The notes beneath the pieces are model-generated. The model ran no database searches. It was not told the origin of the DNA and worked only from the letters and a program-made list of their open reading frames with translations. Positions 3,288-11,957 of a stretch of 34,470 nt of DNA are shown one piece after another (within the stretch, counting starts at the first letter, position 1; every line of letters starts with the position of its first letter). The translations under genes and the position numbers were made by a program. The stretch comes from a virus, in the IMG/VR virus record IMGVR_UViG_3300032083_000307, positions 1 through 34,470 of that record. One strand, 5' to 3'.

Positions 3288-3532
3288 CAGACTCTCCTAA
3301 AGTTACGTGTTTTCTTTGCTATATTTTTAGGTTGTTTACTAAACTGTTTACCTTTAGCTTTATCTTGCCGTTTTTTACGAGTTGTAGCAGCGTATTCAGA
3401 GCTAGACAGTGATTTAATAGCACTAGAAGGCAGATACCTTTCCCCTGTTTGGGCAGAAGGTTTACCTGACTTCGTTCTCCAGTCTTGTTTAGTCCATTTA
3501 GCTAACGACTTTTGTGATTTTTTCAAAGACAT
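3287..3532 (-). CDS. DUF5872-like basic phage protein
   Basis: This 81-residue protein has the pattern LAKWTKQDWRTKSGKPS, then GERYLPSSAIKSLSSSEYAA and GKQFSKQPKNIAKKTRNFR. I recall this as DUF5872-type, found in marine phages and nucleocytoplasmic large DNA viruses. The family is known by sequence only. Its position beside the DUF6321-like protein repeats a pairing common in such genomes. Confidence 0.6.
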   Translation of the reverse strand: MSLKKSQKSLAKWTKQDWRTKSGKPSAQTGERYLPSSAIKSLSSSEYAATTRKKRQDKAKGKQFSKQPKNIAKKTRNFRRV

Positions 3533-3533
3533 A

Positions 3534-3806
3534 TTATATCTTTACAAGCTTGTAGCCTTTTTCTTTAGCTGCTGCTCGTATATCAGCAAGTGTCATTGAC
3601 TTGCCTTTTGCCATACCACCTTTTTTCATGTAGCCCATTTTATTTCTAACTGCGCTAGGAAGTTTACTTACACCTTTGTTTCCTTTTGGTGCAGCTTTAA
3701 GTGCGCCACCAGCAGCGTAGCCTTTTTTCTTCATAGCACCACCTTTGGCATACCCTTTTTTCTTCATGCCACCTTTAGCGTAGCCTTTTTTCTTTTTCAT
3801 AACCAT
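3534..3806 (-). CDS. KGYAKGG-repeat protein
   Basis: This 90-residue protein opens with three tandem KKKGYAKGG-type units (third copy KKKGYAAGGA), then a linker and a fourth degenerate unit, GYMKKGGMAKGK. It ends in a compact SAP-like or LEM-like helix pair (MTLADIRAAAKEKGYKLVKI), the kind of short motif that can bind DNA or RNA. The start at 3806 is chosen because AAGGAG lies 8 bases upstream; a longer frame exists but lacks such a site. The repeats are also visible at DNA level as tandem units of about 27-30 bases. Function is unknown. Confidence 0.6.
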   Translation of the reverse strand: MVMKKKKGYAKGGMKKKGYAKGGAMKKKGYAAGGALKAAPKGNKGVSKLPSAVRNKMGYMKKGGMAKGKSMTLADIRAAAKEKGYKLVKI

Positions 3807-3810
3807 CGTA

Positions 3811-4485
3811 TTACTCCTTATTATACAAGTTATCAAATACTCTGTGTGTATCCCACACGTAATCTAAATCTTCTTTAGAGTGAAACACTCTTTGACTAGG
3901 TTTGAAGTCTGGCGCACCTTCTCCTGTCTCAAACCAAGCAGGGTGCGTAACTCTTACTCTGTTATTCGGTAATGCTACAATGTTTCCTGTGTAGCTACCT
4001 GCGTCTACTAGCTCTAATACATGGCTCTGTTTATGCTGTGCAGGGTCATCCGCTATCTCAGAGCCTGTGTAGTCTACTGTGAATATGTATTTAGCTGGAT
4101 AGAACTCACCGTCTACTTTCGCCATCCAAGGGGCTGGTGTAGCCCTGTTCAGCACGTAGACTGAGTGATCATGTGACATACAATCCCAAGGCTGTGCTGC
4201 ATAGGCTGGTAGCTCTTCAGCCCACTCCTCTACGGGTGTGTCACCTACGAGTGCTGTAATAGGCATTCTCGCCCACATCGCTCCACCATGTACGTTAGGT
4301 TCGTCTGTGTCATCTGATTCGCAACCAGTAAAGATGACTTGGAAGCTCAGTGATCTATTTGGCATAGTCGTCACAGCTATTACCATGCAATGTAGGAACT
4401 CACCGTGGTATCGTTCAAAATTACATGTATATTCTCTGCGTACCCATGCCTTGAAGTATGGGATATTACTCTGTAAGTACGGCAT
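3811..4485 (-). CDS. Conserved marine-phage protein (MPYLQ family), function unknown
   Basis: This 224-residue soluble protein starts MPYLQSNIPYFKAWVRREYT and continues HGEFLHCMVIAVTTMPNRSL. The middle contains AMWARMPITALV, and the C-terminal half contains YIFTVDYTGSE, AQHKQSHVLELVD and PNNRVR. I recognise this layout from conserved hypothetical proteins in cyanophages and pelagiphages, where it sits upstream of structural genes. No catalytic motif is evident. It is the only mid-sized non-basic protein in this block. It overlaps the upstream gene by 20 bases. Confidence 0.6.
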   Translation of the reverse strand: MPYLQSNIPYFKAWVRREYTCNFERYHGEFLHCMVIAVTTMPNRSLSFQVIFTGCESDDTDEPNVHGGAMWARMPITALVGDTPVEEWAEELPAYAAQPWDCMSHDHSVYVLNRATPAPWMAKVDGEFYPAKYIFTVDYTGSEIADDPAQHKQSHVLELVDAGSYTGNIVALPNNRVRVTHPAWFETGEGAPDFKPSQRVFHSKEDLDYVWDTHRVFDNLYNKE

Positions 4486-4888: not shown

Positions 4889-5401
4889 CTATGACCTATA
4901 TCCACCGCCCTTGGCTTTATACTGTTTAGCAAGCATCTGAGCTTTACGTGCAGACCACTGACCTGGATTACCACCTTTACCGCCTGCTTTAATTCTGTTA
5001 AATAAATTTTTACGCATAGAAGGTTTTGTATAGTTGCCTGCTTCATTGACAGAAGAACCACGACTTAACTTTAATTTACCTGCGTTTTTATCACGAGCAA
5101 AAGAACGATTAGCAGATGCTTTTATTGCACGTAAATTAGATGGGCTGTTATCCATTGGATTACCGTTTTTATGATCTACATCTTTACCATCACCCTTACG
5201 CACAGCTCCACTCTTTATTGCTGCACGTCTAGCTGCATTACGCGAAGTACGTTTAGCTACTTGCTCTGGTCGTGATTTATATCGAGCATTCTCCTGTGCA
5301 TAGTTACGCTTCTTCTTAGATTTAGCAGCTACTGCACCGCCTACGTTCATCTTACGTTTAGCAGGCTTAGTGGTCTTTTTTGCTTTTGTAGTTCGGGTCA
5401 C
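4889..5401 (-). CDS. HNH endonuclease fused to a basic GQWSARKAQ tail
   Basis: This 170-residue protein has a basic leader, then an HNH region (about residues 33-105): the block ENARYKSRPEQVAKR, the DVDHKNGNPMDNSPSNLR core with the DH and N residues, and the SANRSF end. The C-terminal 45 residues (RKNLFNRIKAGGKGG, then NPGQWSARKAQML) form a separate domain that I recall from small marine-phage proteins. The start is GTG at 5401 with AAGGA upstream; ATG 5350 is an alternative. It may be a homing nuclease or a packaging-associated HNH. No terminase neighbour is visible to decide. Confidence 0.65.
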   Translation of the reverse strand: MTRTTKAKKTTKPAKRKMNVGGAVAAKSKKKRNYAQENARYKSRPEQVAKRTSRNAARRAAIKSGAVRKGDGKDVDHKNGNPMDNSPSNLRAIKASANRSFARDKNAGKLKLSRGSSVNEAGNYTKPSMRKNLFNRIKAGGKGGNPGQWSARKAQMLAKQYKAKGGGYRS

Positions 5402-5898: not shown

Positions 5899-5912
5899 TT
5901 TGTGATCACAAA
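5899..5912. promoter_or_regulatory. Perfect 14-bp palindrome, operator candidate
   Basis: TTTGTGATCACAAA is a perfect dyad in the noncoding control region, a shape typical of a dimeric repressor site. It resembles two CRP half-sites without the usual 6-bp spacer, so a CRP site is unlikely. Confidence 0.45.
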
Positions 5913-6270: not shown

Positions 6271-6295
6271 AACTCTCCCTTGCAAGGGAAACATT
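6271..6295 (+). repeat. 25-bp stem-loop element, copy 1
   Basis: AACTCTCCCTTGCAAGGG followed by AAACATT. The core TCCCT-TGCA-AGGGA forms a 5-bp stem with a 4-base loop. This is the only copy not directly followed by a gene; copy 2 lies 140 bases downstream. Confidence 0.75.
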
Positions 6296-6410
6296 ATATT
6301 ATATCTCAAATAAAATTAACGCTTGTGATCCTATCAGATATGTGCATAATCTAATTATGGAAGGCGAGTAGCCAACCGCTAAACCGTGGCAAAAATGTCA
6401 CATAAATATT

Positions 6411-6435
6411 AACTCTCCCTTGCAAGGGAAACATT
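6411..6435 (+). repeat. 25-bp stem-loop element, copy 2
   Basis: Identical to copy 1 over all 25 bases. It ends 15 bases before the ATG of the first rightward gene (6451). Confidence 0.75.
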
Positions 6436-6450
6436 AAAGAAAGTAAAAAA

Positions 6451-7137
6451 ATGACAAATAAAATTGAAAGCTTTAACAGCGAATTAACTAGAGTGCAACT
6501 TGCCGTTACTAGAGTTTTGAAAGCTCAAAATTCTAATGAGAAAAAAGAAGCTAATCACTTGAAGCAACAGACGGATTATTTCAACAGTCCAGAACATTTA
6601 GAAGATTTATTTGTGATCGGTCAAAGATATGACCAACATTTTCAAAATAGAAATAATGGATTATCAAAGCGTCAATTTGATGTTTTAAAAGCTGATGATC
6701 CATCAGTTAAAAGATGCAATGTCAAAAAAGCTGACCTTGAAAATGACGGCCTAAACAAAATTTCCCAACGTCTGAGCGAGTGTCATAATTATTTCGCATA
6801 TAATAACGAATTCGAGGCCGCTCGCGTCGAGATGCAAGAAGGCGAAAAACCAAAAACTTGCACTTCTTTACAGCGCGTGATTGTTCACATGACGAGCAAA
6901 AACTTATTTCCATATGATGCGCCCAAAAAGACTAAATCCGCTCAATGGGTAGTTGATCAAGTTTTTAAAATGATCGAGAAAAATGAACTTTCCCTTGATC
7001 AATTTATTAACGCATTCGGAAAAGACGAGCGTGTTGCAAGGCATGTAAGAGGCACGCAAATTGTCAAAGAAATGGGATCTACAAAAGTTACCCCAGAAAA
7101 AACGACCAATCAAAAAGGCGTATCAATAGCCGCCTAA
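6451..7137 (+). CDS. Unknown 228-residue protein, single-gene early unit
   Basis: This is the first gene of the rightward arm, preceded by the stem-loop element and closed by its own strong terminator, so it is transcribed alone. The protein is soluble, mixed-charge and helical. Residues about 30-75 include NHLKQQTDYFNSPEHLEDLF; a central region contains LQRVIVHMTSKNLFPYD; the C-terminal part (SAQWVVDQVFKMIEKNELSL) could be a helical bundle. No catalytic or clear helix-turn-helix motif is recognised. Its 3' half is locally richer in CG dinucleotides than neighbouring genes. An abundant early protein (replication initiator, master regulator or host-takeover factor) would fit; that is inference. 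Confidence 0.6.
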   Translation: MTNKIESFNSELTRVQLAVTRVLKAQNSNEKKEANHLKQQTDYFNSPEHLEDLFVIGQRYDQHFQNRNNGLSKRQFDVLKADDPSVKRCNVKKADLENDGLNKISQRLSECHNYFAYNNEFEAARVEMQEGEKPKTCTSLQRVIVHMTSKNLFPYDAPKKTKSAQWVVDQVFKMIEKNELSLDQFINAFGKDERVARHVRGTQIVKEMGSTKVTPEKTTNQKGVSIAA

Positions 7138-7154
7138 AATATCCAAATCAAATT

Positions 7155-7184
7155 GGGTAGCATTTATTTGCTACCCTTTTTTTT
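7155..7184 (+). terminator. Intrinsic terminator after the first rightward gene
   Basis: An 8-bp stem, GGGTAGCA / TGCTACCC, with a 6-base loop is followed at once by eight T residues. It separates the 6451-7137 gene from the rest of the arm. Confidence 0.9.
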
Positions 7185-7192
7185 ATGTCATT

Positions 7193-7222
7193 ACGGTCAT
7201 AGTTAGGCAGTGAACGGCAGTG
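7193..7222 (+). repeat. ACGGTCATA + GGCAGTG repeat cluster, copy A
   Basis: ACGGTCATA (7193-7201) is followed by GGCAGTG at 7206-7212 and 7216-7222, spaced 10 bases (one helical turn) apart. The same combination recurs at 9139-9179. It lies directly upstream of a predicted promoter. Confidence 0.55.
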
Positions 7223-7242
7223 AGCCAAAATAAATATAGTGC

Positions 7243-7271
7243 TTGACAGGGTATAGGCTATATGGTAGGTT
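7243..7271 (+). promoter_or_regulatory. Predicted promoter with flanking direct repeats
   Basis: A -35 box TTGACA (7243-7248) and a 17-base spacer lead to a -10 box TAGGTT (7266-7271). GGGTATAGGC occurs twice, at 7249-7258 inside the spacer and at 7272-7281 just past the -10 box, as if for operator binding. It follows the terminator and would start the second rightward unit. Confidence 0.6.
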
Positions 7272-7306
7272 GGGTATAGGCACTAGCTATATGCCTAAGA
7301 CATTTT

Positions 7307-7331
7307 AACTCTCCCTTGCAAGGGAAACATT
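7307..7331 (+). repeat. 25-bp stem-loop element, copy 3
   Basis: Identical to copies 1 and 2. It sits in the leader downstream of the predicted promoter and 11 bases before ATG 7343; the ribosome binding site GGAG follows immediately. Confidence 0.75.
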
Positions 7332-7342
7332 GGAGCAACACG

Positions 7343-7474
7343 ATGACTTTTGAAATACTAATAACTTTGTATGGAATCTTTTTAATGGTTTATATGCCAT
7401 ATGTTTTGATTAAAGTAATACGTATGCGTAGAGCAGACAGAAAGGCTTGGGAGAAGTACAATGGTAGAACGTAA
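7343..7474 (+). CDS. 43-residue single-span membrane protein
   Basis: MTFEILITLYGIFLMVYMPY leads into VLIKVIRMRRADRKAWEKYN: one N-terminal transmembrane helix (residues 3-26) and a basic cytoplasmic tail. GGAG at 7332-7335 lies 7 bases before the ATG. The gene overlaps the next by 14 bases. A small inhibitor of a host membrane target is possible; function is unknown. Confidence 0.55.
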   Translation: MTFEILITLYGIFLMVYMPYVLIKVIRMRRADRKAWEKYNGRT

Positions 7475-8084
7475 CGGAGTTCACATTAGTAAGATGACAA
7501 GTAAGCTAGAGGATTTACGTGCTATATCTACTAACACGGCAACGAATGAGTATTGCATCAAGCAGAACAGTACGGCTAAAAGCAATAATATATGTACACA
7601 TTGTTATTCACATACAATGCTGAAGTCGTACCGCAAGAATATGCAACCTGCATTGCAACACAACAGTGATTTCCTATCAAGTAAAGTACATGATGTGGAA
7701 TATCTACCTGTTTTACTAGACGCATTCATCAGATTCAATGCACATGGAGAATTGATAAATCTCAATAACTTAATTAATTATGTAAACATTGCCAAGAAAA
7801 ATCCACATTGCCGATGTGTCTTGTGGACTAAACGCAATGATCTGATTGTTAAGTATTTCAAGGAGAACGCCAAGCCGTCTAACTTTATTCTTATCTACAG
7901 TAATCCTATTATATCTACTGTTATGGGCAAGATACCGAAGTATTTTGATAAGACATTCAATAACGTGCTAGAGCATGAACACGTAGCCTTGCAGAACTGT
8001 ACAGGGCAGAAGTGCAAAGATTGTATGCTATGTTATACAGAGAATGACACGACAGTAATTGTTGAGAAGGTAAAAAAGTATTAA
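7461..8084 (+). CDS. Cysteine-rich GP88-like phage protein
   Basis: This 207-residue protein has nine cysteines in three groups: C32 with NICTHCYS (C45, C48), HCRC (C117, C119), and the C-terminal cluster NCTGQKCKDCMLCY (C180, C185, C188, C191). Between them lies FNAHGELINLNNLINYVNIA and VLWTKRNDLI. The layout matches what I recall of the phage 'gene product 88' family, thought to bind metal or an iron-sulfur cluster. The CxxC near the N-terminus hints at a radical-type or zinc fold, but no CxxxCxxC radical-SAM motif is present. GGGAG upstream of ATG 7461 supports the start. Confidence 0.65.
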   Translation: MVERNGVHISKMTSKLEDLRAISTNTATNEYCIKQNSTAKSNNICTHCYSHTMLKSYRKNMQPALQHNSDFLSSKVHDVEYLPVLLDAFIRFNAHGELINLNNLINYVNIAKKNPHCRCVLWTKRNDLIVKYFKENAKPSNFILIYSNPIISTVMGKIPKYFDKTFNNVLEHEHVALQNCTGQKCKDCMLCYTENDTTVIVEKVKKY

Positions 8085-8107
8085 CTCTCCCTTACAAGGG
8101 AAACATT
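8083..8107 (+). repeat. 25-bp stem-loop element, copy 4 (loop variant)
   Basis: It differs from the other copies at one base only, in the loop (TACA instead of TGCA), so the stem is intact. Its first two bases are part of the preceding stop codon (TAA 8082-8084). It ends 12 bases before ATG 8120. Confidence 0.75.
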
Positions 8108-8119
8108 GGAGGAAGTAAA

Positions 8120-8263
8120 ATGAGTGATTTTGAAACAACACATTGGAGAGCCAAGTATCTTAACGAGTATCTTAAAGATAAGCAACCCATTAAGCTAACT
8201 AAAGACCAAAAGAGGAGACTAGTTAGGCATTTGATAGCTAAAGAGTTTGTAGATGACAAATAA
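8120..8263 (+). CDS. 47-residue charged helical protein
   Basis: MSDFETTHWRAKYLNEYLKD is followed by KQPIKLTKDQKRRLVRHLIA and KEFVDDK. It is helical, with no cysteines or membrane segment. GGAGG lies 8 bases before the start. It overlaps the next gene by 11 bases. Function is unknown. Confidence 0.6.
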   Translation: MSDFETTHWRAKYLNEYLKDKQPIKLTKDQKRRLVRHLIAKEFVDDK

Positions 8264-8533: not shown

Positions 8534-8896
8534 ATGATAAAAGTTACATTCACTACCCAGAGAAACAAAACTATTGAAAACCCAAATGACATTGTTCCGA
8601 CAGTGTACAAGTATGCAGATAGTAGATGTCCTATGGGTAGTAATGAGTACAAAATACTCGATACGATAATTGTTGAACACTACGCAACACATACTGTAAA
8701 TGAGCTAGTAGAAATTACTGGAGTTTACAAAGCAAGAGTATTGTGGAGAATCAAGTTTCTTATGGAAAATGGCTATATTCAGCCTAAGAGTAGGATTTAT
8801 TTGACCAAGGAGCAAAAACAGTCTCTGAGAAAGCAAATATCAGCCAACAAAAAAGCAATCAAATCAGCTATGGCAAAACTCAATCGTGCGGCTTGA
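8534..8896 (+). CDS. Helix-turn-helix DNA-binding protein
   Basis: This 120-residue protein has a probable helix-turn-helix at residues 55-82 (VNELVEITGVYKARVLWRI, then KFLMENGYI), shaped like MarR/ArsR-type winged helices (helix 2, turn, recognition helix, then the wing around YIQPKSRIYL). The C-terminal helix is lysine-rich. It is a candidate regulator of the rightward arm or of the dyads in the control region. Ribosome binding site AAGGAG at 8520-8525. Its target is inferred. Confidence 0.6.
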   Translation: MIKVTFTTQRNKTIENPNDIVPTVYKYADSRCPMGSNEYKILDTIIVEHYATHTVNELVEITGVYKARVLWRIKFLMENGYIQPKSRIYLTKEQKQSLRKQISANKKAIKSAMAKLNRAA

Positions 8897-8920
8897 CATA
8901 TGCCAATAATGGCCTATGAT
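8893..8920 (+). promoter_or_regulatory. Predicted promoter TTGACA-16-TATGAT
   Basis: The -35 box at 8893-8898 overlaps the preceding stop codon; the -10 box is at 8915-8920. Boxes match the sigma70 consensus well. Transcription would start around 8927, downstream of ATG 8900, so it would serve the genes from 9194 onward rather than the first gene. Confidence 0.45.
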
Positions 8921-9136
8921 ATAGGTATCCTAGTTGACGGTAAGGAGAAAGTTATCAAGATTGATGACACATATCCTGCCGTCAACGATTGGGAGACTGC
9001 AACAATTTTCGCCATACAGTTGATCACTTCAAAATATGGCGAAAGTGACATTGAGTTTTTATTCTGTAAAGATTATCCATCAGAGGAGTACAAAAAATAT
9101 GGTTACATACATGAAACGCCAATTCGAGTTCAATAA
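8900..9136 (+). CDS. Small acidic protein, unknown
   Basis: This 78-residue protein, MPIMAYDIGILVDGKEKVIK onward, is acidic with alternating short strands and one helix (WETATIFAIQLITSKYG). It starts 3 bases after the preceding stop, so translation is probably coupled; an internal ATG (8909) is possible. It resembles other small phage proteins with a beta-alpha-beta layout but belongs to no family I recognise. Confidence 0.5.
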   Translation: MPIMAYDIGILVDGKEKVIKIDDTYPAVNDWETATIFAIQLITSKYGESDIEFLFCKDYPSEEYKKYGYIHETPIRVQ

Positions 9137-9193: not shown

Positions 9194-9346
9194 ATGAAAA
9201 ACAAAAATAGTTATAATTACATTGTGTGGGTTGGTGGTTGTGATGATTACTATATTTCATATGATAGAGCAAAAGAACATTATGATGAGTGGATTGATCA
9301 AGGTTATACTGATGTCCATCTAATAGGAGTTACTGAACATGAATAG
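9194..9346 (+). CDS. 50-residue VGGxDDYY-type phage protein
   Basis: MKNKNSYNYIVWVGGCDDYY is followed by ISYDRAKEHYDEWIDQGYTD. I recall this small beta-alpha family in marine phages, where it is usually annotated hypothetical. CGGAG lies 8 bases before the ATG, and the gene overlaps the next by 8 bases. Function is unknown. Confidence 0.6.
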   Translation: MKNKNSYNYIVWVGGCDDYYISYDRAKEHYDEWIDQGYTDVHLIGVTEHE

Positions 9347-9905
9347 ATTTATAGTAGATCACGATGTTGCAGACATAGCTCAGTCACTGTGTGACCAACA
9401 CATAGTAAAGATGCCACTCGAAGAAGCACAGATGTTATGCACTGCACTATGGCATCACAGGCCAGAGTATGCGGAAAGGCGTGGGTTGTATAAGCCTGTG
9501 CATCAGAAACATCCATGTACTCTGTGGGCTATGGAGACTAGTGATAACTACCGATATGCTTGGCGTCTGTATGATGCCATGCTCGATGAGTATACACACA
9601 GGTATGGCAAGAAACATGGTTGTGCAAAACACTATGACTCTCTTCACGAAGGCGTTGTTTATATACCACAGGGTGGCCTGACACCACACCCTCAGTGTTT
9701 CTCAGGTCACGATGACCTCAAGACAGATGAGAAGTGGCCTATCAAAGCATACAGGGCGTTCTACAAGCGTGACAAGATGTCCTTTGCACGTTGGAACAAG
9801 AACAGAGCTATGCCTGAATGGTTACGAGAGGGCATATATGAAGATGACTTGGTGACAAAAAGAAACCTATGGTCAGTAGATTTAGAGGAGTTAGTAGTAT
9901 GTTAA
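9339..9905 (+). CDS. Conserved phage protein, CDQHIVKMPLEEAQ family
   Basis: This 188-residue protein starts FIVDHDVADIAQSLCDQHIV and continues KMPLEEAQMLCTALW. Further conserved blocks are HPCTLWAMETSDNY and KWPIKAYRAFYKRDKM. The CDxHVVKM-ExxQ-LCT pattern is widespread in phages and is sometimes linked to pyrimidine-dimer glycosylase-like proteins; I cannot confirm that link from the sequence. Histidine, cysteine and acidic residues in the first motif could form an active site. AGGAG precedes the ATG. It could act in DNA repair or modification. Confidence 0.55.
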   Translation: MNRFIVDHDVADIAQSLCDQHIVKMPLEEAQMLCTALWHHRPEYAERRGLYKPVHQKHPCTLWAMETSDNYRYAWRLYDAMLDEYTHRYGKKHGCAKHYDSLHEGVVYIPQGGLTPHPQCFSGHDDLKTDEKWPIKAYRAFYKRDKMSFARWNKNRAMPEWLREGIYEDDLVTKRNLWSVDLEELVVC

Positions 9906-10564
9906 CGATTGAGGAAAAGAAAAAACGTAACGCAAAGTATTCTAGAAAGTACCGACAAAACAATAAAGAAGCTATAGCAGAGGCTAATAAAAAATATTAC
10001 CACAAGAATAAAGAACACCTGAAAGAGAGCATGAAAGAATACAGACAAAACAGTAAAGAAACGGTAAAGGAGTATTGGAAAGAATATTACCAAAAGAATA
10101 AAGAAGCTATAGCAGAGGCCAGTAAAAAATATTACCAAAAGAATAAAGAACGTATGGCAGAGTACTGTAAAGAGTATCGTAAAAATAAATATAGCACTAA
10201 TTTAGACTATAAATTTCGTCATTTATTACGAAGTGCTTTGTATAGAAATTTAAAAAGATATTTAATAAAAGAAACTAATCCAGAGTTTTCTTATACTAAA
10301 GCATCTTCATCTCTTTTAGGTTGTACTGTGGAAGAATTAAAAACACATATTGAAAATCAGTTTGAAGATGGTATGACATGGGAAAACTGGGCACATGATG
10401 GGTGGCATTTAGATCACATAATTCCCTGTAGTTCTTTTGACCTGACAAAAAAGAAAGAACAGAAAAAGTGTTTTCATTACACAAACCTACAACCATTGTG
10501 GGCAGAGGATAATTTGAGCAAGAGCAGTAAATTAAACTGGAATAAAAAGGAGTTAGTAGTATGA
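9899..10564 (+). CDS. HNH endonuclease with repetitive basic N-terminus
   Basis: The 221-residue protein has two parts. Residues 1-100 are a highly charged repeat array built from KYYxKNKE and EYRQNxKE units. Residues 110-215 are an HNH domain with WHLDHIIPCSSFDL (the H-D-H core) and CFHYTNLQPLWAEDNLSKS (the N and final motif). The preferred start is ATG 9899 with GAGGAG at 9885-9890. Such free-standing HNH proteins are usually homing nucleases in phages. It overlaps the next gene by ATGA. The repeat array has expanded recently (see the internal repeat). Confidence 0.85.
   Translation: MLTIEEKKKRNAKYSRKYRQNNKEAIAEANKKYYHKNKEHLKESMKEYRQNSKETVKEYWKEYYQKNKEAIAEASKKYYQKNKERMAEYCKEYRKNKYSTNLDYKFRHLLRSALYRNLKRYLIKETNPEFSYTKASSSLLGCTVEELKTHIENQFEDGMTWENWAHDGWHLDHIIPCSSFDLTKKKEQKKCFHYTNLQPLWAEDNLSKSSKLNWNKKELVV
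9962..10151 (+). repeat. In-frame 55-base direct repeat inside the HNH gene
   Basis: Bases 9962-10016 and 10097-10151 match at 52 of 55 positions, with starts 135 bases (45 codons) apart. Both encode NKEAIAEAxKKYYxKNKE. This looks like a recent duplication within the basic linker. Confidence 0.8.
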
Positions 10565-10746: not shown

Positions 10747-10771
10747 CAGTATCAACAGGGTGTGATACACC
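10743..10771 (+). promoter_or_regulatory. Probable promoter with operator dyad
   Basis: TTGACA (10743-10748) is followed by GGTGT-GAT-ACACC, a perfect 5-bp-arm inverted repeat at 10759-10771, in the gap before the 10825 gene. A -10 box is uncertain: GATACA 10764-10769 gives a 15-base spacer, and TATATA at 10772-10777 is too far. The dyad would overlap the polymerase site. Confidence 0.4.
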
Positions 10772-10824
10772 TATATAAGCAAGGCACAGTTGCCAAGCGT
10801 TAACCAACAATAGGAGTTAAAAAA

Positions 10825-10956
10825 ATGAAAATTATAATTAGTATGCCAACCCCAGAGTTACAGAAAGCGGCTGAAGAAAAGGTCGAGGACTGGACTAAGC
10901 AGTGGGGTGTGTTTGAAAAACAAAAAGAGAAACTAGAAAATGAGGAGAATACATAA
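10825..10956 (+). CDS. 43-residue acidic helical protein
   Basis: MKIIISMPTPELQKAAEEKV continues EDWTKQWGVFEKQKEKLENE. AGGAG lies 8 bases upstream of the start and a TAATG overlap couples it to the DUF932 gene, so it is likely translated. No family is recognised. Confidence 0.5.
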   Translation: MKIIISMPTPELQKAAEEKVEDWTKQWGVFEKQKEKLENEENT

Positions 10957-11789
10957 TGCCATTTGATTTTACAATACCAGAGACAGTAGACTTTGACATA
11001 GCCTTTGAGGATACAAAGGTAGATGACAAGAAGTATGTTCTTAACGCAACGACAGGTGAGTACCTGAATGTAGTAGGCAAAGACTTCACCTGTGTCAGTC
11101 ACCCTGAACACTACAACGGTGTGATGACAACTATCGTAGATACACTAGGCACTGATGCAGTAGAAGATGCACAGATCAGGTGGAAAGTTGCACGTAATGG
11201 AGGGTGGACTATGATGGACATGGTACTGCCTAAAGTTAAGAACTTTGTGCGTACAGATAAGCATGAGACTGAGGTAAGCCAGAGAGTTATCTCATTACAT
11301 GGTGTAGACTCATCATGTTCTAGCATCTGTCTACATGGTTGGATAGACTTCTTCTGTACCAATGGGTGCATCTCAGGTGAGCATGACAAGGTGAAGCGTA
11401 AGCATACATCAGGCTTTGACTTTGACATATTCCAGATGCAACTGAGAGACAGTCAGCGTAGCTTTCACGAGCAGGCTCAGAGGCTACAGACATGGGCTGA
11501 ACAGAGAGTCTATGTAGATGAGGTCAAAGCGATGCTTGATGACATGATAGGCTCTAAGCAGAAGGCTGAGAAGATGTATGAATTGTACTGTGCTGAAGCA
11601 TCAGTGCGAGGTCACAACAAGTATGCAGTGTACTCAGCATTCACGAACTACAGTTCATGGGCTGATGAGCGCAACGGTTTCAGCCTACGTAACACAGGCT
11701 ATGACACGAGGAATATCAGTATGTTTAATCGTGAAGTAGAAGTATCTAAGTGGATAGATAGTCCACAGTTTAATCAACTAGCCGCATAA
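10956..11789 (+). CDS. DUF932 family phage/plasmid protein
   Basis: This 277-residue protein matches the DUF932 layout: VLNATTGEYLNVVGKDFT in the N-terminal domain, a central region ending in GWIDFFCTNGCISGEHDKVK (the conserved CxNGxxxG), and a long helical C-terminus (SFHEQAQRLQTWAEQRV). DUF932 proteins are common in phages and plasmids; their role is unsettled, and links to DNA replication or recombination have been proposed. Here it heads a run of small early genes behind a probable operator-controlled promoter and precedes the replication genes, which fits an early DNA-related role. Confidence 0.8.
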   Translation: MPFDFTIPETVDFDIAFEDTKVDDKKYVLNATTGEYLNVVGKDFTCVSHPEHYNGVMTTIVDTLGTDAVEDAQIRWKVARNGGWTMMDMVLPKVKNFVRTDKHETEVSQRVISLHGVDSSCSSICLHGWIDFFCTNGCISGEHDKVKRKHTSGFDFDIFQMQLRDSQRSFHEQAQRLQTWAEQRVYVDEVKAMLDDMIGSKQKAEKMYELYCAEASVRGHNKYAVYSAFTNYSSWADERNGFSLRNTGYDTRNISMFNREVEVSKWIDSPQFNQLAA

Positions 11790-11801
11790 GGAGGGCAACA
11801 T

Positions 11802-11957
11802 ATGGAGTTAGATCTTGATCACGAGCCTAGTTTAAATCACTGGGCTCGAAGACTGGCTGACGATGACATAGCTACAGGCTACCATACAAATTGGGATCAT
11901 GCCTATGAGTGTGCGTGGCACTCTTTGGATGCAGAATATAATTACAGTTACATATAG
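11802..11957 (+). CDS. 51-residue acidic protein
   Basis: MELDLDHEPSLNHWARRLAD continues DDIATGYHTNWDHAYECAWH. It has a strong binding site AAGGAGG (11788-11794). It is acidic and rich in His and Trp. No family is recognised. Confidence 0.55.
   Translation: MELDLDHEPSLNHWARRLADDDIATGYHTNWDHAYECAWHSLDAEYNYSYI

Follow-up and report, generated by a model that had tools for sequence, protein, structure and literature searches.

What is the role of a 25-base element that is repeated four times among the early genes of a phage? The element, AACTCTCCCTT[G/A]CAAGGGAAACATT, lies on the + strand of a stretch of viral DNA from IMG/VR that we refer to as the window, meaning the whole 34,470 nucleotides analysed. 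The DNA polymerase encoded in the window is 75% identical to that of Roseobacter phages CRP-345 and CRP-1 and 65% identical to that of Puniceispirillum phage HMO-2011, and the order integrase-primase-helicase-polymerase-RNR is common to all four. These two features identify the window, at 34.5 kb, as part of a podophage of the HMO-2011 type with a genome of ~54 kb. Such phages are reported to be dominant and widespread in the ocean, and to our knowledge almost nothing is known about the ordering of their gene expression. A genome analysis of the group found integrases in several HMO-2011-type subgroups and reported integration of CRP-3; the strings ‘promoter’ and ‘palindrom’ never occur in it, and ‘repeat’ stands in it twice, on unrelated matters (PMC9038755). 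A full-text literature search with the site sequences gave two papers on other subjects and no published description of these sites.

Results

The exact 25-mer, AACTCTCCCTTGCAAGGGAAACATT, was found at 6271-6295, 6411-6435 and 7307-7331, and a fourth copy at 8083-8107 carried one mismatch, TGCA to TACA. A scan of the window allowing up to three mismatches gave no further match, and 100 dinucleotide shuffles of the window gave none at all, confirming the four positions and the single variant that had been read from the sequence alone. The 14-base core, TCCCTTGCAAGGGA (pattern TCCCTT-NN-AAGGGA; 6276-6289, 6416-6429, 7312-7325 and 8088-8101), is a perfect DNA palindrome, and the base change in copy 4 sits in its central 2-bp spacer (AC for GC). 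The palindromic repeat is thus real, but the ‘stem-loop’ by which it had been described is only an interpretation. All four copies have one orientation and share asymmetric flanks.

Copy 1 lies in the leader, 175 nt 5′ of the first early gene (6451-7137, + strand, 228 aa). The cores of copies 2, 3 and 4 end 21, 17 and 18 nt before the ATG codons at 6451, 7343 and 8120, and the corresponding 25-mers end 15, 11 and 12 bases before them, which agrees with the 11-15 bases initially claimed. The ribosome-binding site said to come next is present after copy 3 (GGAG) and copy 4 (GGAGG), and is just a weak AAAGAAAG after copy 2. The first early unit is closed by an intrinsic-terminator-like hairpin and T-run (7155-7176, +). 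No T-tract follows any copy of the element on the + strand, so the view that the element is not a terminator holds. A possible sigma-70 promoter, TTGACA-17-TAGGTT (7243-7271, +), precedes copy 3; its -10 box is weak, and it was seen by eye, was missed by the promoter scan and is conserved in a relative, L003, where copy 3 also keeps its distance of 17 nt. Copy 3 is followed by a 43-aa ORF (7343-7474, +) and by the gene for a GP88-like protein (PF17338, 207 aa; 7461-8084, +). Copy 4 begins inside the TAA stop codon of the latter (8082-8084), as had been noticed, and precedes a 47-aa ORF cassette (8120-8263, +) that L003 and L164 do not have in this position. A tRNA or known RNA family could be discarded as the identity of the element, as none was found and there was no Rfam match in the window at the gathering threshold.

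We then determined how far the exact sequence reaches. Apart from the identical strain (L001/L002), IMG/VR scans found it only in L003, which has two copies, and in L078/L136, which has one, and relaxing the spacer added no contigs to these. The spacer of copy 4 is GC (TGCA) in L003 and AC in L078/L136. Eighty GP88 neighbourhoods contained no copies outside these relatives, and the exact 25-mer was missing even in a neighbour whose adjacent protein is 91% identical. GTDB genome contigs gave 0 matches, and an origin of the element in a host or in a prophage of a sequenced genome was set aside on that result. A loose scan (AACTC N4 TTRCAA N4 AACATT) returned 57 stretches, of which only those of known relatives kept a fully paired stem; the others look like chance matches. 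By eye, other GP88-bearing phages seem to have intergenic repeats of their own before start codons (TAGCAAAGG-type repeats and TTGATAATTTATAGG hairpins), at L014:~5290-5360, L015:~2500-2560 and in intergenic regions of L017, L020, L023 and L028.

Relatives were searched for repeated palindromes of any spelling. The search covered CRP-345, CRP-1 and HMO-2011 and two wider sets of loci, one around relatives of the window gene 10956-11789 and one around the first early gene (80 IMG/VR loci). The early region of CRP-345 carries the repeated palindrome TGTCCAACGTTGGACA, and CRP-1 has palindromes of the same family (form GTCCAAYRTTGGAC in both phages) at matching places. HMO-2011 has five early copies of AGTCCGACAGCGGACT (form GTCCGACAGCGGAC), one of them inverted. 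Of the 80 loci around the first early gene, 76 held at least three copies of a palindrome of their own (3-9), and many contigs around relatives of gene 10956-11789 held 3-8. Most were spelled GTCC[A/G]A-NN-T[T/C]GGAC, the dominant form in relatives, while L181 has three copies of TCCCAA-N-TTGGGA. In total, 273 distinct sites matched without mismatch; a reversed-consensus control, run on a smaller set, gave 0 matches at zero mismatches and 2 at one. A logo built from 150 non-redundant sites gives AAA-NN-GTCCRA-NN-TYGGAC-NN-TTT, in which the symmetry of a 6+2+6 dyad carries on, past two mismatched positions, into the flanks. The contexts of the sites do not differ between the spacer forms TG, CA, CG and, in a few phages, GG. 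The CC-N6-GG layout of the relatives' sites is found in the window palindrome as well.

Hence the exact element is absent from most relatives, which would have counted against it, but differently spelled palindromes stand at matching places, indicating that the class of element is conserved. From these searches, the window element emerges as one form of a 14-base palindrome scattered through early genes in lineage-specific spelling. The presence of an integrase did not separate site-bearing from site-less phages. One HMO-2011-type locus, L183, lacks gp01, the first early gene product of the relatives; instead, it has eight copies of GTGAC-N5-GTCAC (at 1120, 2004, 2112, 2667, 2976, 3849, 4958 and 8313) with A-rich flanks, several of them 16-30 nt before start codons, and an unrelated first early gene of 196 aa. 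It is an analogous system built from other parts.

We next considered where the sites lie. Strict classification of 213 sites placed 91 ahead of a start codon, 57 within genes in an open S-[N/D]-[V/I]-G-Q frame, and 65 in leaders or elsewhere. For sites with a downstream start codon the distance peaks at 18-25 nt in relatives; in the window it is 17-21 nt. Some relatives' sites lie ~30 nt 3′ of TTGATA-N16/17-TATAAC promoters, and others directly follow a stop codon. A leader copy is found 216-299 nt 5′ of gp01 in most relatives examined, L162 and L165 being the exceptions. Neighbouring sites are 150-1500 bp apart.

This arrangement bears on two explanations of the repeats. A phage-specific promoter had been proposed for the element, and its 3′-side GGGA, reminiscent of the end of T7 and T3 promoters, and its location before genes would suit a T7-type RNA polymerase encoded by the phage. 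No such single-subunit polymerase is annotated in CRP-345, CRP-1 or HMO-2011 or was detected among 20 proteins scanned from the partial genome in the window. Some of the relatives' sites come after sigma-70-type promoters and others lie inside genes, and no T7-like start stands at the ends of these sites, so that we give this proposal almost no weight. The sites might instead serve a partition, replication or DNA-organising protein in the manner of parS or iterons, rather than transcription. Several 14-bp palindromes in one region of each genome would fit, and the first-gene product could then be a centromere-binding protein; nevertheless, the spacing of 150-1500 bp, the placement relative to promoters and start codons, and the lack of a ParA-like gene in the annotations of CRP-345, CRP-1 and HMO-2011 make such a role very improbable.

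The leaders hold further repeats. In L145, L146, L147 and viral loci, a recurrent promoter with a dyad of its own, CACTTGATACTTTAGTGAAAGTG...TATAAC, precedes several 5′-leader sites. The palindrome TGTGATCACA occurs in the divergent leader, at 5901-5910 in the window, at L155:4394 and 4469, at L156:3719 and 3793, and at L159:3605, 3637, 3683 and 3714, with up to four copies in CRP-603. We counted 55 in loci L162-L321, which overlap, against ~1 expected, which makes it a second conserved dyad. Directly 5′ of gp01, relatives have a long imperfect inverted repeat (AGTTTAT...ATAAAC type) whose stem sequences differ, for example at the end of L155 (CRP-345), at L192:~3470-3550 and at L162:~4390-4450. 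It is possibly a leader RNA structure, and in the window a copy of the site takes its place.

The palindromes could be read as DNA or as RNA. According to the RNA reading, a protein, perhaps gp01, binds a hairpin with a 5-bp stem and a tetraloop in the transcript and controls translation starts or antitermination as at nut sites. In lambda-type phages, nut/boxB sites are short hairpins of early transcripts, specific to each lineage, and the first early gene supplies their cognate N protein. The present sites resemble these in that the stem has 5 bp, the spelling is lineage-specific and the candidate for the cognate protein is likewise a first-gene product, and differ in that no boxA was seen, the loop is not GNRA-like and there are many more copies, including those in genes. 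All window copies lie in the transcribed orientation, start codons follow 17-25 nt 3′ with the Shine-Dalgarno sequence in between, and gp01 of relatives has an Arg-rich stretch, IDRRRRSEALW. The window core has a predicted RNA fold of just -6.2 kcal/mol (z -0.1 to -2.4 in context).

Covariation was compared across the sites. At arm position 5/10 (n = 273) we found 239 A-T, 31 G-C, 3 G-T and 0 A-C pairs. The arms are almost always complementary, and the asymmetric cases (the three G-T and one T-G) would be wobble pairs on the sense strand, as expected of RNA; the three G-T sites, however, trace to three related loci. Symmetric changes do occur (CCA..TGG to CCG..CGG, or CCCTT..AAGGG), as the check for compensatory stem changes had asked, but they and the near-complete matching of the arms are equally compatible with an RNA stem and with a dyad in DNA that a dimer recognises. 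The stem is near-invariant although pairing would allow changes, and positions 6 and 9, in the supposed tetraloop, are invariably A and T, which a loop does not need and which is natural in a 6+2+6 dyad. The symmetric AAA/TTT flanks showed no excess of pairing over independence, and at ±1 and ±2 Watson-Crick pairs were below expectation. Such a dyad, with its variable spacer of 2 bp, is typical of a site for a dimer, and it is in this spacer that window copy 4 differs.

Many copies lie in genes, away from starts, and control of start codons would not account for the ~57 of 213 that are in frame. Together with the flanks, symmetric but lacking pairing covariation, and the inverted copy in HMO-2011, they fit better with a DNA dyad to which a dimeric protein binds. 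On these site patterns it is rather likely that the sites act as a DNA dyad and not as an RNA hairpin, and we regard the hairpin reading as unlikely.

If a protein reads the sites, the product of the first early gene is the best candidate, judging by its distribution. By BLAST, gp01 was present in 20 of 21 site-bearing genomes, the 21st being the window, and in none of 9 site-less ones. A gp01 HMM run against 3731 ORFs matched a single sequence outside the family, window ORF 6451-7137 (E = 3e-4), which occupies the same slot. A direct BLAST comparison of this ORF with gp01 found no significant similarity, and hhalign gave E 0.0027 with a probability of just 11%; homology is consequently likely, not proven, and 6451-7137 probably encodes a diverged member of the gp01 family. 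A Mantel test tied site distance to the distance of gp01 (r 0.72, p 0.0002), and the partial r was 0.73 once the neighbouring gene 10956-11789 was taken into account. Part of this correlation could come from linkage and co-inheritance because the gp01 gene lies among the sites. Site distance tracked gp01 far more than the primase or the neighbouring 78-aa family (8900-9136 in the window), which is clade-specific to the same degree. Over 9336-9901 and 10763-11804, the DNA of L162 and that of the window are 95% identical, yet L162 differs from the window in both its first gene and its type of site.

We detected no recognisable DNA-binding domain in gp01, and its structure model (pLDDT 74) gave no convincing PDB match (best Foldseek E 1.9, best VIA Z 3.6). 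The model of the window 6451-7137 protein was poor (pLDDT 60). A winged-helix protein encoded at 8534-8896 was considered as the cognate regulator and is less likely, since no match could be detected between it and the protein that CRP-345 encodes in the same position. The first gene of L183 was similarly dropped as a gp01 homologue, its similarity being undetectable.

The same gene is found behind different upstream genes in different phages, and the ORF at 8120-8263 is missing at copy 4 in L003 and L164. Both observations would suit short identical units that permit cassette swaps by homologous recombination, with little regulatory role, as would L162, L165 and L237, whose sites are of a minority type and which resemble recipients of acquired cassettes. 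Exchange of cassettes bringing their own sites can explain the minority types, and the odd site of L237 also carries the flanks of the other lineage. A recombination joint in the manner of promoter-early stem-loops (PeSLs) as the main function nevertheless leaves unexplained the in-frame copies at conserved places, the near-absolute constancy of the sequence within a lineage and a co-variation with gp01 that exceeds genome relatedness, and appears quite unlikely to us.

Discussion

The observations partly support the first reading of the element, which by sequence comparison appears to be a real cis-acting control element of early genes. We favour, at a probability of about 0.55, multi-site early-gene control in which the core TCCCTT-NN-AAGGGA would be a dyad-symmetric DNA binding site whose copies are bound by a gp01-type dimer in operator or stoperator style. 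We infer that the protein would be made early in infection and that its dimer would bind every copy. Bound just 3′ of early promoters, ahead of Shine-Dalgarno sequences and inside units, it would block or pause host RNA polymerase, so that the gene for gp01 and the early cassettes would be turned down together. Since these phages carry integrases, such binding may also confer homotypic immunity. The identical site units could double as joints for the exchange of early gene cassettes. More tentatively, and at somewhat less than even odds, a first-gene protein without a known fold and with fast re-evolving specificity may act as a global early regulator in a heteroimmunity-like system, its 3-9 palindromes serving also as cassette joints and being tolerated in protein linkers.

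Of the systems compared, the proposed one would come closest in its working to stoperators, the sites of Cluster A mycobacteriophages such as L5 and Bxb1, which occur in many copies in transcribed regions with a lineage-specific consensus, and whose motif distance tracks repressor distance (PMC6550527). Both are sets of sites repeated along transcribed DNA in phages that carry an integrase, and in both the consensus tracks one phage protein. L5-type stoperators are asymmetric 13-bp sites, up to ~30 per genome, bound by a known immunity repressor (PMC6550527), whereas those described here are palindromic 14-bp dyads that number 3-9 per genome and keep to the early region, with a candidate protein of no known fold. 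Cluster K phages have repeats of unknown function beside the start codons of some genes; the start-associated sequences (SAS) include the ribosome-binding sequence, and extended SAS (ESAS) contain inverted repeats with imperfect 17-bp arms and variable spacers, spelled differently by subcluster (PMC3203893). Unlike these, the sites described here are compact 6+2+6 dyads that lie 5′ of the Shine-Dalgarno sequence and also occur in genes, and they differ in sequence from the 13-bp GGGATAGGAGCCC-type start repeat of Cluster K. The PeSLs of T4-type phages are described, in an account that cites the original work, as repeated promoter and palindrome units between shuffled early genes and as composite promoter-terminator motifs (PMC4503421, citing Arbiol 2010). 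Repeated palindromes amid shuffled early genes are common to both; the present sites lack a T-tract and often a promoter, one of the attached kind standing ahead of some relatives' sites while others directly follow a stop codon.

With a searchable consensus and a named candidate protein, early control, lysogeny and superinfection immunity become directly testable in HMO-2011-type phages, and the spelling of the site offers a sequence tag to sort metagenomic phages by likely immunity type. If the proposal is true, one of the most abundant phage groups of the ocean would have a heteroimmunity-like system.

Repeats of another kind lie further downstream in the window, where tandem-like direct repeats of 45-115 nt occupy 9936-10185, inside the coding region 9869-10564 of an endonuclease VII-like protein.
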